This document shows positions 24,021 to 64,000 of a DNA stretch of 64,000 nt, in pieces. Made by a program: the position numbers and the translations under genes. This DNA comes from Isoptericola sp. AK164. GTDB lineage: Bacteria; Actinomycetota; Actinomycetes; Actinomycetales; Cellulomonadaceae. The notes beneath the pieces are model-generated. The model had not been told where the DNA came from and did not search any database. It saw nothing but the letters and a program-made list of their open reading frames with translations. The first letter of the stretch is position 1. Each line of letters begins with the position of its first letter. The stretch is from the NCBI RefSeq assembly GCF_029643425.1, contig NZ_CP119106.1:868001-932000 (forward strand), in the 5' to 3' direction.

Positions 24021-24085
24021 GCATCGAGCGTGCCGGGTTCTCCCTCATGACCTGATCGGGAGGAGGAACCCGGCACGCTCGATGC
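24021..24085. terminator. Terminator of the araBDA operon, 20-bp perfect stem
   Basis: GCATCGAGCGTGCCGGGTTC (24021-24040) is perfectly complementary to 24066-24085, with a 25-nt loop. It begins 12 bp after the araA stop and separates the operon from the second LacI gene. Confidence 0.8.
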
Positions 24086-32032: not shown

Positions 32033-32094
32033 GTTGTGGGCGTGAAATCTGCGGTTCCGGAGTGCTCCGGAGTTGCAGATTTCACGCCCACAAC
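32033..32094. repeat. 62-bp inverted repeat in the 566-bp gap
   Basis: GTTGTGGGCGTGAAATCTGC (32033-32052) is perfectly complementary to 32075-32094; the 22-nt centre contains CTCCGGAG. Its arms are less GC-rich than the surroundings. It may be a terminator, but the nearest upstream gene ends 280 bp away and already has one, so it could mark a vanished gene. Confidence 0.6.
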
Positions 32095-33898: not shown

Positions 33899-33963
33899 AG
33901 ATCGACCCTCCCGGATCGGGTCCCACCGCCAGGCGGTGGGACCCGATCCGGGAGGGTCGATCT
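33899..33963. terminator. 32-bp perfect inverted repeat between convergent genes
   Basis: Arms of 32 nt (33899-33930 and 33932-33963) flank a single A; the inner part is CCCACCGCC-A-GGCGGTGGG. It lies between the convergent membrane-HTH and arabinofuranosidase genes, about 20 bp from each stop, and should end both transcripts. Its length is exceptional. Confidence 0.8.
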
Positions 33964-59851: not shown

Positions 59852-60634
59852 ATGGAGGTCGTCATCGCTCCCGAGCGGGAGCTGGCGGCGCTGGCCGCCG
59901 ACGCGATCGAGTCGTTGCTGCGTCGTCGTCCCCGGACCGTGCTGGGGCTGGCCACGGGCTCGAGCCCGCTGAAGGTCTACGACGAGCTGGCTCGCCGTCA
60001 CACCGAGGACGGGCTGTCCTTCGCCGAGGCGCGGGGGTTCATGCTCGACGAGTACGTGGGTCTGGCCGCCGACCACCCGGAGCGGTACCGCAACGTCATC
60101 GCGACCGAGATCGCCGAGCGGGTGGACTGGCCCGCCGACCAGGTCCGGGGTCCGGACGGGCTGGCGGTGGACCTGCCGGCGGCGTGCGCGGCCTACGAGG
60201 AGTCGATCCGGGCGGCCGGGGGAGTGGACCTGCAGCTGCTGGGGATCGGGACCGACGGGCACATCGCGTTCAACGAGCCGGGGTCCTCGTTGGCCTCGCG
60301 CACGCGGATCAAGACGCTGACGCGTCAGACGCGGGTGGACAACGCCCGGTTCTTCGACGGTGACGTCGAGCGGGTGCCCACGCACTGCTTGACTCAGGGT
60401 CTCGGCACGATCATGCAGGCCCGGCACCTGGTGCTGCTGGCCACGGGCAAGCACAAGGCCGAGGCGGTGCACCAGCTCGTCGAGGGCCCGGTCTCGGCGC
60501 TGTGGCCGGCGACGGTGATGCAGTTACACCCGCACGCCACGGTGCTGGTGGACGAGGCGGCCGCCTCGCGTCTGCAGCTGGCCGACTACTACCGCCAGAC
60601 GTACGCCTCCAAGCCCGACTGGCAGGGCCTCTGA
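59852..60634 (+). CDS. nagB: Glucosamine-6-phosphate deaminase
   Basis: A 260-residue enzyme that converts glucosamine 6-phosphate to fructose 6-phosphate and ammonia. VLGLATGSSPLKVYDELARR is the phosphate loop, FMLDEYVGL holds the catalytic Asp, and GIGTDGHIAFNEPGSSLASR holds the Asp-His pair. THCLTQGLGTIMQARHLVLL and TGKHKAEAVHQLVEGPVSAL complete the signature. The ATG follows caggaaggaggcctcc. It closes the MurNAc operon. NagA, needed to deacetylate GlcNAc 6-phosphate first, is not in the window. Confidence 0.96.
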   Translation: MEVVIAPERELAALAADAIESLLRRRPRTVLGLATGSSPLKVYDELARRHTEDGLSFAEARGFMLDEYVGLAADHPERYRNVIATEIAERVDWPADQVRGPDGLAVDLPAACAAYEESIRAAGGVDLQLLGIGTDGHIAFNEPGSSLASRTRIKTLTRQTRVDNARFFDGDVERVPTHCLTQGLGTIMQARHLVLLATGKHKAEAVHQLVEGPVSALWPATVMQLHPHATVLVDEAAASRLQLADYYRQTYASKPDWQGL

Positions 60635-60691
60635 GACGAGGTTCGCGGGGTGAGTGTGGCCCTGGGCCGCCGGGTGCGAAATACTGGGCGA

Positions 60692-61504
60692 ATGAGCATG
60701 AGCCGTTCGAATCCCCTGCCTCGGGTCCCCACGCCGCCTCAGGGGGACGAGGTCGCCGCCTACGACTCGTACCTCGAGGCGCAGAAGGCCGTCGACTACC
60801 TCTCGGACGAGAAGTTCCCCGTCCAGCACGTCACCATCGTGGGCACCGACCTGCGGATGGTCGAGCGCGTCACCGGCCGGCTGACGTACGGCCGGGTGGC
60901 GCTGGCCGGCGCCCTGTCCGGCGCCTGGTTCGGCTTCTTCGTGGGCCTGCTCCTGATGTTCTTCGCCGCGGGCGAGACCAGCGTGCTGCTCGTCGCGCTG
61001 GCGCTCGGCGCCGGGTTCGGACTGATGTTCTCCGTGCTCTCCTACGCCTTCACCGGCGGGCGGCGGGACTTCACGTCGCAGTCGCAGATCGTGGCGTCCA
61101 CGTACGCCCTGCTGTGCGCCACCGAGCACGCGGCCGAGGCGCGGACCATGCTGCAGAACGCACCGGGCGGGCTGGGCAAGCCCCGGCGCCGGGAGCGGCC
61201 GGCCGCTCCCGCGGCCCCGTCGTCCCCGGACCCGCGATGGACGATGCCCGACGGCGCCCCGCGCTACGGCGCGATGCGGCCCGGCGGGGAACCAGGTCCG
61301 GCCGCGACCCCGGGCGGGTCGGGATCGTCGACGTCGGCCGTCGCCGGCGGCGAGGGGCCCTCGCAGCCGCAGCCGGGCCCCGACGAGCTGCCGCCCGCGG
61401 TGCCGCCGCAGGGCGGGGAGTCGCCGTCGTCGACCTCCACGCCGACGGCCCCGCCGCCGTCCTCGGACCCCGACGACCCGTACGCGCCGCCGCCGGAGCG
61501 CTGA
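60692..61504 (+). CDS. Gly-zipper membrane protein, general-stress-protein type
   Basis: A 270-residue protein. Residues about 20-80 match the small domain of general stress protein 17M-like proteins (YDSYLEAQKAVDYLSDEKFP and VTIVGTDLRMVERVTGRLTY). Two Gly-rich membrane helices follow (ALAGALSGAWFGFFVGLLLM and LALGAGFGLMFSVLSYAF). The last 110 residues are a Pro/Gly/Ser-rich disordered tail ending DDPYAPPPER. ATG at 60692 or 60698; no ribosome site, but TACTGG lies just upstream, so a leaderless transcript is plausible. The function of this actinobacterial family is unknown. Confidence 0.85.
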   Translation: MSMSRSNPLPRVPTPPQGDEVAAYDSYLEAQKAVDYLSDEKFPVQHVTIVGTDLRMVERVTGRLTYGRVALAGALSGAWFGFFVGLLLMFFAAGETSVLLVALALGAGFGLMFSVLSYAFTGGRRDFTSQSQIVASTYALLCATEHAAEARTMLQNAPGGLGKPRRRERPAAPAAPSSPDPRWTMPDGAPRYGAMRPGGEPGPAATPGGSGSSTSAVAGGEGPSQPQPGPDELPPAVPPQGGESPSSTSTPTAPPPSSDPDDPYAPPPER

Positions 61505-61582
61505 GCGCCGGTTCCGCGTCCGCCAGGGCGCCGTCCGAGCCGCCACCTGCCGGTTCGGGATCCGGCCGCGCCGCCGTGGTGA

Positions 61583-61644
61583 GTTCGGTCCGTCGCAACG
61601 AGTTCGGTCAGGATCCTGACCGAACTCGTTCCACCCGACCGAAC
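61583..61644. repeat. 62-bp palindromic element, left copy
   Basis: Order: GTTCGGTC - 6 nt - AACGAGTTCGGTC - aggatcct - GACCGAACTCGTT - 6 nt - GACCGAAC. The central 34 bp (61597-61630) are a perfect palindrome. It lies 78 bp after the stress-protein gene and 103 bp before the AbiEi/DUF559-like gene. The right copy at 62670 has the same length and spacing. Confidence 0.85.
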
Positions 61645-61747
61645 GGTGCGCCGTGCGGGCCACCCACAGCACCGGCTGTCCACACCACGGGCCGGATCCT
61701 GTCGGCTCGCGCCACCGCATGTCCGGCAGGCGCGGCACCGTGGCCGG

Positions 61748-62653
61748 ATGAGCCCCTCCGACGAGATCACCCTGGCCGGCGACACCTACCGGGCCGCACT
61801 GACCCGGTCGGTCCGGGCCGGCGAGGTCGTCAAGGTCCGCTACGGCGCCTATCGGGCGCGGGCCGACGGCGAGATCGGCCTGACGGACCACGTCCTGGCG
61901 CTGCGGCGTCAGCTGCGCGACCCCGTGTTCAGCCACGAGACCGCTGCTGTGCTGCTGGGCTGCTCGCTCTGGCACCGCCCGGAGCGGGTGCACGTGATGC
62001 GACCGTACCGGCGCTCGGGCCACGCCTCACGAGACGTGCAGTGGCATCTCGGCACCGTCCCTGCGGAGGAGCTGCTCCGCCTCCGGGGACTCGAGGTGAC
62101 GACGCTGGCCCGGACGGTCGTCGACTGCGCCCTGACGTCGCATCCTCTGCAGGCACTGGTCGTCGCCGACTCCGCACTGCGGCTGGACCCACCCCTGGAC
62201 CTGACGGCGGCGCACCATGTGCTGCGGCGTTCGCGTCGTCGCCAGGGCCGGGCACGTGCGCGCTGGGTCCTCGACCATGCCGACGGCGGGTCGGAGTCCC
62301 CCTGGGAGACCTGGACACGCTACGTGTGCCTGCGCGCCGGGATGCCCCGTCCGATCACCCAGGCGCCCGTCAGGACCCGGGTCCGTCTCTACCGCTGCGA
62401 CCTCGGCTGGCCCGAGCACGGCGTGTACGTCGAGTTCGACGGTCGCATCAAGTACGCGCGGTCCGGCACCGCGGAGCTGCTGCGGGAGAAGAAGCGCTCC
62501 GACGACCTGCGCGAGGCGGGAGTGGTCCCGGTCCGGGTGCTGGCGACGCAGCCGTCGGGCGTACCGCGGGTCGTGGGCGCCGTCGCGCGGAGGTTTCCTC
62601 CGGAGGTGGCGGCGCGATTCCGGGTGAATCCCGTGCTTCCGGCGCCGACCTGA
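61748..62653 (+). CDS. AbiEi/DUF559-like protein
   Basis: A 301-residue protein of a large actinobacterial family. The N-terminal part resembles the winged-helix of AbiEi-type antitoxins (GDTYRAALTRSVRAGEVVKV followed by RYGAYRA). The middle (FSHETAAVLLGCSLWHRPER, then VTTLARTVVDCAL) fits transcriptional-regulator/AbiEi-like proteins. The C-terminal part (WETWTRYVCLRAGMPRPITQ, YRCDLGWPEHGVYVEFDGR, REKKRSDDLREAGVVPVRV) looks like the DUF559/Vsr nuclease-like fold with a D-x(n)-E-F-D-G-R pattern. No AbiEii-type toxin gene is adjacent. Two 62-bp palindromic elements flank it. Function unknown; a regulator or nuclease in defence or repeat handling are possibilities only. Confidence 0.82.
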   Translation: MSPSDEITLAGDTYRAALTRSVRAGEVVKVRYGAYRARADGEIGLTDHVLALRRQLRDPVFSHETAAVLLGCSLWHRPERVHVMRPYRRSGHASRDVQWHLGTVPAEELLRLRGLEVTTLARTVVDCALTSHPLQALVVADSALRLDPPLDLTAAHHVLRRSRRRQGRARARWVLDHADGGSESPWETWTRYVCLRAGMPRPITQAPVRTRVRLYRCDLGWPEHGVYVEFDGRIKYARSGTAELLREKKRSDDLREAGVVPVRVLATQPSGVPRVVGAVARRFPPEVAARFRVNPVLPAPT

Positions 62654-62669
62654 CGACCCAATCCGGTCG

Positions 62670-62731
62670 GTTCGGTCGTCCGGAACGGGTTCGGTCGACA
62701 TGTTGACCGAACCCGTTCCGGACGACCGAAC
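62670..62731. repeat. 62-bp palindromic element, right copy
   Basis: Order: GTTCGGTC - gtccgg - AACGGGTTCGGTC - gacatgtt - GACCGAACCCGTT - ccggac - GACCGAAC. Here the whole 27-nt arms (62670-62696 and 62705-62731) are perfectly complementary around an 8-nt loop. It begins 16 bp after the stop of the flanked gene and also lies between convergent genes, so it can act as a terminator. Confidence 0.85.
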
Positions 62732-62740
62732 GGAGAGACT

Positions 62741-62782
62741 GCTCAGGGCTCAGGGCTCAGGGCTCAGGGCTCAGGGCTCAGG
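62741..62782. repeat. Heptanucleotide tandem repeat
   Basis: Six perfect copies of GCTCAGG, 42 bp, starting 10 bp after the right palindrome and ending 12 bp from the stop codon of the peptidase gene. The peptidase gene end contains GCTCAGGC, so the array may have grown from it. The unit is not a multiple of three but is intergenic. Confidence 0.9.
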
Positions 62783-62794
62783 GCAGCGGGGAGC

Positions 62795-64000
62795 TCAGGC
62801 GCGTACGCGCGCCATCCAGGCCTCGACGTCCTCGGGGCGCCGGGGGAGCGCCGCGGAGAGGTTCTCGTTGCCGTCGGCGGTGACCAGGACGTCGTCCTCG
62901 ATGCGCACCCCGATGCCGCGGTACTCCTCGGGCACGGCCAGGTCGTCGGCCTTGAAGTAGAGCCCCGGCTCGATGGTGAACACCATCCCCGGCTCGAGCA
63001 CGCCGTCCAGGTACATCTCCCGGCGGGCCTGTGCGCAGTCGTGCACGTCGAGACCCAGGTGGTGCGAGGTGCCGTGCACCATCCAGCGACGGTGCTGCTG
63101 GCCCTCGGGGGACAGCGACTCCTCGGCGCTCACCGGCAGCAGCCCCCACTCTTCGAGCCGGGCGGCGATGACCTCCATCGCGGCGGCGTGGATGTCGCGG
63201 AACTTCGCGCCGGGCTTCGCCACGGCGAACGCGGCGTCGGCGGCGTCGAGCACGGCGGTGTAGATGCGGCGCTGGACGTCGGTGTACTCGCCGTCCACGG
63301 GCAGCGTGCGCGTGACGTCGGCGGTGTACAGCTCGTCGATCTCGACACCGGCGTCGAGCAGCACCATCTCGCCGGATCGCACGACGCCGTCGTTGGTGAT
63401 CCAGTGCAGCGTGGTGGCGTGCTCGCCGGCCGCGGCGATGGTCTCGTAGCCGACCGTGTTGCCCTCGAGCCGGGCGTGCGCGTCGAACGTGGTCTCGATG
63501 ACGCGCTCGCCGCGGCGGTGCTCGACGGCGCGCGGCAGGGCCCGGACGACCTCCGCGAACCCGTCGATCGTGCGGTCCACGGCCTCACGCATGAGCTCGA
63601 TCTCGAGCTCGTCCTTGACCAGGCGCAGCTCGGAGGCCGCCTCGGCCAGCGCGTCGTCGGAGGCGGACTCCTCGGTGCCGGCCTCGGTGCGGATCGCCTC
63701 GATCACGGCGGTGATCTCGTCGTCGGCCTCCGCGATCACGAGGACCTGCACGCCGTCGGCGCCGACGTCCTTGGCGAGGGCCTCGCGCAGCTCGTCGACG
63801 TGCCGCGCCTCGACGCCGGTGGTGGTGGTGACGTCGTCGAGGGTGGGCCGGGCGCCCACCCAGAACTCGCCGTAGCGGGCGTCGGCGTAGAACTCCTCGG
63901 TGTCCCGCGGGGCCAGGGGGCGCACGTACAGCACGGCGTGGTGGTGCGACCCGCCGTCACCCTCGCCCTCGGCGGTGGGGTGCAGCACGAGCACGGCGTC
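62795..64000 (-). CDS. pepP: Xaa-Pro aminopeptidase, M24B (N-terminus beyond window)
   Basis: At least 401 residues of a metallopeptidase that removes an N-terminal residue before proline. The N-terminal (creatinase-like) domain is cut by the window edge; reading is open to base 64000. The pita-bread metal ligands are complete: LLDAGVEIDELYTADVTRTL (two Asp), GTSHHLGLDVHDC (His), VFTIEPGLYF (Glu) and GIGVRIEDDVLVT (Glu). The order and the preceding HWITNDGV and GYETIAAAGEHATTLH segments fit PepP. It is convergent with the AbiEi/DUF559-like gene. Confidence 0.94.
   Translation of the reverse strand, partial: DAVLVLHPTAEGEGDGGSHHHAVLYVRPLAPRDTEEFYADARYGEFWVGARPTLDDVTTTTGVEARHVDELREALAKDVGADGVQVLVIAEADDEITAVIEAIRTEAGTEESASDDALAEAASELRLVKDELEIELMREAVDRTIDGFAEVVRALPRAVEHRRGERVIETTFDAHARLEGNTVGYETIAAAGEHATTLHWITNDGVVRSGEMVLLDAGVEIDELYTADVTRTLPVDGEYTDVQRRIYTAVLDAADAAFAVAKPGAKFRDIHAAAMEVIAARLEEWGLLPVSAEESLSPEGQQHRRWMVHGTSHHLGLDVHDCAQARREMYLDGVLEPGMVFTIEPGLYFKADDLAVPEEYRGIGVRIEDDVLVTADGNENLSAALPRRPEDVEAWMARVRA

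Follow-up and report, generated by a model that had tools for sequence, protein, structure and literature searches.

A nuclease-like gene between two matched palindromes as a probable resident source of dispersed hairpin repeats

Why should a single nuclease-like gene stand between two long palindromes of nearly the same design, and do these palindromes belong to the gene? The locus that raises this question lies in a window of 64,000 nucleotides (the whole stretch analyzed, G000:C1:868001-932000), inside a 3.58-Mb single-contig genome of 71.7% GC. An earlier note, made from the letters alone, had described two 62-bp elements with a common motif plan and differing spacers around an AbiEi/DUF559-like gene. 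Our scan confirmed the two elements (Table 1), which match the plan with no mismatch where 100 shuffles lead one to expect none. They are identical at 48 of 62 positions and their spacers do differ, as had been claimed; one correction is that the two N6 spacers of the right element are complementary, which makes it an almost unbroken palindrome, whereas those of the left element are not (54 of its 62 positions are self-complementary). Folded as DNA, both are far more stable than their shuffles (z of -6.7 and -9.2). The gene is flanked by those of a YflT-domain protein (yflT) and an M24 peptidase (pepP). Directly past the right palindrome, at about 62741-62783, the 7-bp unit GCTCAGG forms a short tandem array. 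An Rfam search of positions 60000-64000 returned three sub-threshold microRNA matches, which we dismissed as generic hairpins.

Table 1. Coordinates of the features discussed, in positions of the window
Feature	Position	Strand	Remarks
Left bracketing palindrome	61583..61644	.	62 bp, dialect GTTCGGTC-N6-AACGAGTTCGGTC; N6 arms not complementary
Right bracketing palindrome	62670..62731	.	60/62 positions self-complementary; starts 16 bp past the stop codon
Nuclease-like gene	61748..62653	+	301-aa protein; AbiEi-like N-terminal and Vsr/MTES_1575/DUF559-like nuclease parts, both via homologs
DnaA-box-like site CTGTCCACA	61676..61684	+	1 base off the actinobacterial DnaA box TTGTCCACA
Solo palindrome, clade C dialect (CATCGAGCGTGC)	24021..24085	.	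Similar brackets at L163, L146
Solo palindrome, dialect D (GTTGTGGGCGTGAAATCTGC)	32033..32094	.	Belongs to a dialect with at least 63 sites genome-wide
Solo palindrome, clade B type (AGATCGACCCTCCCGG)	33899..33963	.	Relatives have palindromes of the same or another spelling at this site

The gene belongs to a large actinobacterial family in which, judging by the homologs, an AbiEi-like N-terminus is joined to a MTES_1575/DUF559-type nuclease C-terminus, and relatives are annotated as 'AbiEi family antitoxin' or 'DUF559'. The AbiEi/DUF559 label first given to the gene holds through the Pfam matches of its homologs; the protein itself has no Pfam match at E 0.001 (nor at E 0.01 in the family survey). 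Among 29 members surveyed at E 0.01, 14 match the MTES_1575 nuclease, six AbiEi_4 and three DUF559. When 29 of the 41 bracketed members described below are aligned, residues E187, D218, D231, G232 and R250 (numbering of the window protein) are invariant and E229 is nearly so; the conserved acidic residues are of nuclease type, and the window protein aligns with the invariant positions. Profile match and conserved acidic residues thus place it in the MTES_1575/DUF559 group by way of its homologs. The best PDB profile match was to the endonuclease-like 3hrl (E 0.0011), and a weak match to 3r3p covered the ExDG region (E 0.32). We liken the nuclease part to Vsr or EDxHD-type nucleases, among which we would group 3r3p, which we take to be a mobile intron protein. 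Structure prediction from the window protein alone, without relatives, gave a pLDDT of 36 and was unusable.

A search of the genus returned 99 matches in all 18 genomes, kept as 97 loci because two rows are second pieces of a gene. Across the class, 107 of 148 genomes, the window's own included, carry a homolog at E 1e-20. Viral contigs and phage records yielded no family relative, and a search of plasmids gave six records with weak matches.

At 41 of the 97 genus loci, a matched palindrome pair (about 45-85 bp, identity at least 0.77) stands on both sides of the gene; one locus has two unmatched palindromes, 26 have a palindrome on one side and 29 have none, in a mechanical scan (limits of 45 bp and 330/120 bp) that scored loci cut by contig ends as misses. 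Randomly mismatched partners show a median identity of 0.60, with 95% at 0.74 and a maximum of 0.85. Bracketed genes have one palindrome before the start and the other beside the stop codon. Three of the eight family members in the window's own genome have a pair (L016, L019, L020), in quite different spellings. A contiguous control of 337 kb held just two pairs of 0.75 or above, both at family members. Two sub-threshold pairs of the control (0.71 and 0.68) have no family member between them. These results, together with the joint change of both ends described below, support the proposed link between gene and element.

Outside the genus, a pair of identity 0.70 or above was found at seven of 49 homologs and no matched pair at the other 42 (2 of 29 in one batch, or 3 of 30 counting the own locus, then 5 of 20); these scans were looser (38 bp, up to 450 bp away), scored some loci cut by contig ends as misses, and covered high-scoring rows, the second batch being hand-picked from the same list, so that the loci are not a random sample. 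Two of the seven pairs reach 0.74 and 0.76, near the chance level of the genus test. A number of homologs without matched brackets (L017, L091, L108, L110-L113, L115, L118, L119, L122, L126 and L154) cluster in the tree, and most of these have a shorter, ordinary hairpin about 270-480 bp upstream. They may represent a conserved, non-dispersing branch.

The spelling of the palindromes varies by clade and by genome, with both ends of a locus varying together (letters A to D denote clades as labeled in this analysis). The exact motif plan was found in the window's own genome alone among the 148 genomes searched for relatives, and a scan of GTDB added seven single matches in unrelated taxa. Around the same locus in relatives, the arrangement is constant and the spelling changed. 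Where the gene stands next to pepP (seven genomes), the two ends of a locus have an identity of 0.90 and same-side ends of different genomes one of 0.72; five of the seven within-locus values are above all values between genomes. The figures for three other same-site groups are 0.91, 0.87 and 0.89 within a locus versus 0.70, 0.73 and 0.71 between genomes; one group of three loci is hardly concerted (0.81 versus 0.77). Palindrome identity also rises with protein identity (r = 0.29 over 40 loci and 715 comparisons without shared flanks), a correlation that none of 2000 permutations reached.

We read the same locus in ten relatives. The gene is present between yflT and pepP in the own genome, G008, G009 and G013, is also present there in G017 between two matching palindromes, and is inverted in G011; each of these five relatives has two mutually matching palindromes of about 60 bp in a genome-specific spelling. 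G010 and G004 have yflT and pepP with a single palindrome and no gene between them, and in G012 the interval holds neither gene nor long palindrome. The stretches of G001 and G002 contain no yflT and therefore say little about the presence of the gene. G012 and G004 may retain remnants, which would suggest loss of the gene.

Presence, absence and inversion at one site would fit an insertion-sequence-like transposon, in which the gene and both palindromic ends move jointly and the solo copies are internal-deletion derivatives, and the paired ends do look like transposon ends. The earlier note had proposed such a mobile unit of gene plus ends, and to this extent it is partly supported. Against joint movement, 67 pairs of bracketed loci, involving 38 of the 41, have flanking sequence in common, none of the 41 pairs has a target-site duplication (lengths 2-12, never above the best of 200 shuffles), and each end is a complete palindrome, the similarity between the two ending at the palindrome edges. 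We consider a transposon very unlikely. As the bracketed loci lie mostly at shared sites, the part that disperses is mainly the palindrome.

Palindromes are indeed found away from the gene. The window's own spelling occurs at five full-length places in its genome (four exact, one with two mismatches): the window pair itself and three solos, two exact and one with the two mismatches, besides one decayed copy. One of these solos sits between divergent genes. When these copies were checked for proximity to other AbiEi/DUF559 genes, none was seen to lie beside the seven other family members found in the genome, the nearest being about 15 kb away. Within the window, 11 palindromes passed the chosen score and none did in each of five shuffles; three of the 11 are long and of another spelling (Table 1).

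Dialect D was searched with a covariance model that combined four brackets with the solo at 32033 of the window. Counts are lower bounds with up to 150 candidates scored per genome: at least 126 two-strand matches, equivalent to 63 sites or more, in the own genome, at least 76 matches in G002, 39 in G017, 37 in G001, 35 in G008, 33 in G014, 32 in G012 and 28 in G009, then at least 6 in G010, 2 in G011, 2 in G013 and 1 in G004, and none among the scored candidates of six genomes. We placed 21 D sites of the own genome (20 among the best-scoring, plus the window copy) relative to simple gene calls: 16 have convergent and 5 co-directional neighbors, and no site has divergent neighbors or falls inside a gene, the calls being uncertain at 6 of the 21, where one neighbor is more than 300 bp away and a gene was possibly missed. 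At 8 of the 16 convergent sites, neither stop codon is more than 40 bp away.

A few sites hold a palindrome in one genome and lack it in a relative, with no target duplication. The D element at 607219 of the own genome is missing in G017, where the flanks of the site are 90% identical. Three more empty sites were seen among 36 palindromes of at least 50 bp in the compared stretches, many of which have no counterpart and where deletion can mimic an empty site. The palindrome L214:8628 of G017 is missing in the own genome, a site occupied in both G009 (L308:13831) and G010 (L312:12860) has no palindrome in G008, G013, G000 and G002, and L210:3934 of G013 is missing in G008.

Copy number follows the presence of the cognate gene, though not without exception. 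Of the 18 genomes, 11 carry a D-clade gene; the seven genomes without it have 0 to 6 dialect-D matches, and counts differ between the two groups with p = 0.007, a value that, like the other p values here, is a guide, because the genomes are related and rank tests on them are not independent. The exceptions are G007, G015 and G011, which have a D-clade gene yet 0, 0 and 2 matches, and whose brackets start TGTGAGC. Counting these three as non-cognate, a choice made post hoc, lowers p to 1.7e-4, or to 5e-4 if the two model genomes are left out. The D-clade genes of G001, G008, G009 and G012 have no bracket pair, though their genomes do have dialect-D matches; G008 has a second D-clade copy, bracketed and interrupted.

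Dialect C served as a second test, predicted beforehand. The five genomes with a gene bracketed by dialect C have the top five of the 18 counts (55, 38, 29, 27 and 25), followed by G014 with 22 and the other twelve genomes with 10 or fewer; the model sequences came from these same five genomes, as those of the D model likewise came from searched genomes. With the bracket copies subtracted, p is 0.001 and G014 ranks above G017. G014 thus has 22 matches without a known gene bracketed by dialect C.

Some D-clade genes look damaged. That of the own genome (G000:C1:2850364-2851300; L252, L259) is apparently broken, running in two frames with an internal TGA, and the genome keeps its dialect-D palindromes, at least 63, despite this. 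Second D-clade copies in G008 (L257), G012 (L258) and G009 (L260) contain internal stops, with palindromes of the type TGTGGGTGCACGACACGCCG and variants, a further dialect, nearby.

The hairpin of dialect D is conserved as a structure. In 20 copies of the own genome (19 of 20 read stretches, L292 being omitted for length, plus the window copy), pairing holds in 98.5% of 600 stem cells, and 69 of the cells are altered on both sides versus 20.8 in shuffles. The outer 20 bp or so are almost fixed; about 8 bp by the loop are variable yet complementary. Since stem positions covary, the hairpin itself is kept.

A kept hairpin could be a terminator, and as RNA the five window palindromes of Table 1 form very stable hairpins, with folding energies of -39 to -72 kcal/mol. 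The palindromes would then be bidirectional terminators retained at gene ends, with spellings spread by recombination and the nuclease genes as well-insulated cargo. The convergent placement of most D sites, half of these with both stop codons close by and none of the 21 intragenic, agrees with this, as do the differently spelled palindromes that relatives carry in the same place at 33899. Ordinary terminators, which had been offered as an alternative from the start, are nevertheless insufficient: a scan of the window pair gave neither a T-run nor a terminator-like call, the left palindrome precedes the bracketed gene, one own-dialect solo sits between divergent genes, and spelling is tied to the clade and the presence of the gene. 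Many elements after unrelated genes, with no link to this family, were to have marked a general terminator class; elements after unrelated genes are seen, and the link to the family is there as well. A system of terminators with the gene as cargo is in our view unlikely, and termination by the solos may be a secondary benefit.

Alternatively, the palindromes could be operators, through which the AbiEi-like domain would repress its own promoter as AbiEi antitoxins do, the solos being the sites of a regulon. The palindrome upstream of the start suits this reading, and there is a precedent, as PMC3985639 describes a Streptococcus agalactiae AbiEi that represses its own promoter. An operator does not account for the second copy at the stop codon nor for D solos mainly at gene ends, and it does not need covariation in the loop-proximal arms. 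It is the least probable reading that we weighed.

Another feature accompanies the gene itself. Of 95 homologs (two shorter ones being dropped), 79 have a TCCACA/TGTGGA core in the 200 bp upstream, versus 80 of 2000 random stretches, and 11 have the full box TTGTCCACA there, versus none of the 2000. The orientation of the motif largely tracks clade. According to PMC4285127, TTGTCCACA is the high-affinity DnaA box in Mycobacterium tuberculosis and Streptomyces coelicolor. Because the motif is found with and without brackets, it belongs to the gene family and not to the palindromes. The DnaA-box-like site may tie expression of the gene to replication.

Taken together, the gene and its two palindromes are probably the resident source unit of a hairpin-repeat system that follows REP/RAYT-like logic with an unrelated, non-HUH nuclease. 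Bracketing, the joint change of both ends, copy number and the nuclease residues lead us to infer that the protein would recognize and cut the hairpin. Its AbiEi-like N-terminus would recognize the outer arm of the palindrome, and the Vsr-like nuclease would cut the extruded or single-stranded hairpin. Replication or repair might then copy the hairpin into new intergenic sites; copies would survive best between convergent genes, where they may serve as bidirectional terminators.

The HUH-based RAYT system of proteobacteria is an established example of scattered hairpin repeats that have their own dedicated gene. If our reading is true, actinobacteria hold a second system with an unrelated nuclease, such an arrangement evolved twice, and a widespread family annotated 'AbiEi family antitoxin' or 'DUF559' gains a role. 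The matched enzyme-hairpin dialects would provide a natural series for testing how such repeats spread. A search of an open-access library found no report of such a system.

Several known systems share single features with this one. The weak profile match to 3r3p recalls Vsr/EDxHD-type nucleases; here the gene is not intron-encoded, and as both palindromes are intact beside it, the gene leaves its supposed recognition site whole. AbiE type IV toxin-antitoxin systems share the AbiEi_4 N-terminal match of six of the 29 family members. The window gene differs in having no neighboring AbiEii partner, its neighbors being the YflT-domain and M24 peptidase genes, and in the nuclease-like C-terminus of its family. 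TIRtrons and TIRYTs resemble the locus in that a transposase gene lies between repeats, some of them from repeat families, according to PMC3733652; TIRYTs, however, keep the catalytic tyrosine and the HUH motif and have terminal inverted repeats as ends.

The closest likeness is to REP/RAYT. PMC2817692 and PMC8049555 describe a rayt transposase gene between two palindromic repeats that are dispersed in the genome, REP palindromes kept by complementary changes, and rayt genes that are single-copy and vertically inherited. Here too a gene is flanked by its own repeat (the 41 bracketed genus loci) and the repeat is dispersed in intergenic DNA (no D site of 21 is intragenic). The enzyme differs, as no Y1 Pfam family was found in 29 members and a HUH-like tripeptide in 4 of 97. 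The repeat differs as well: REP repeats are 20-40 bp with a GTAG-type head according to PMC3733652, those described here are full palindromes of about 60 bp, and the listed brackets are long full palindromes rather than short ones next to a GTAG (or GTGG) head. As two features that define RAYTs, the HUH enzyme and the GTAG head, are thus missing, we describe a separate system with the same logic. Whether it is an independent counterpart of REP/RAYT is to us an even question: resident actinobacterial AbiEi/Vsr-like nucleases would each recognize their own long hairpin and copy it through intergenic DNA, a DnaA-like site possibly timing their expression, with enzyme and hairpin co-diverging into coexisting dialects.
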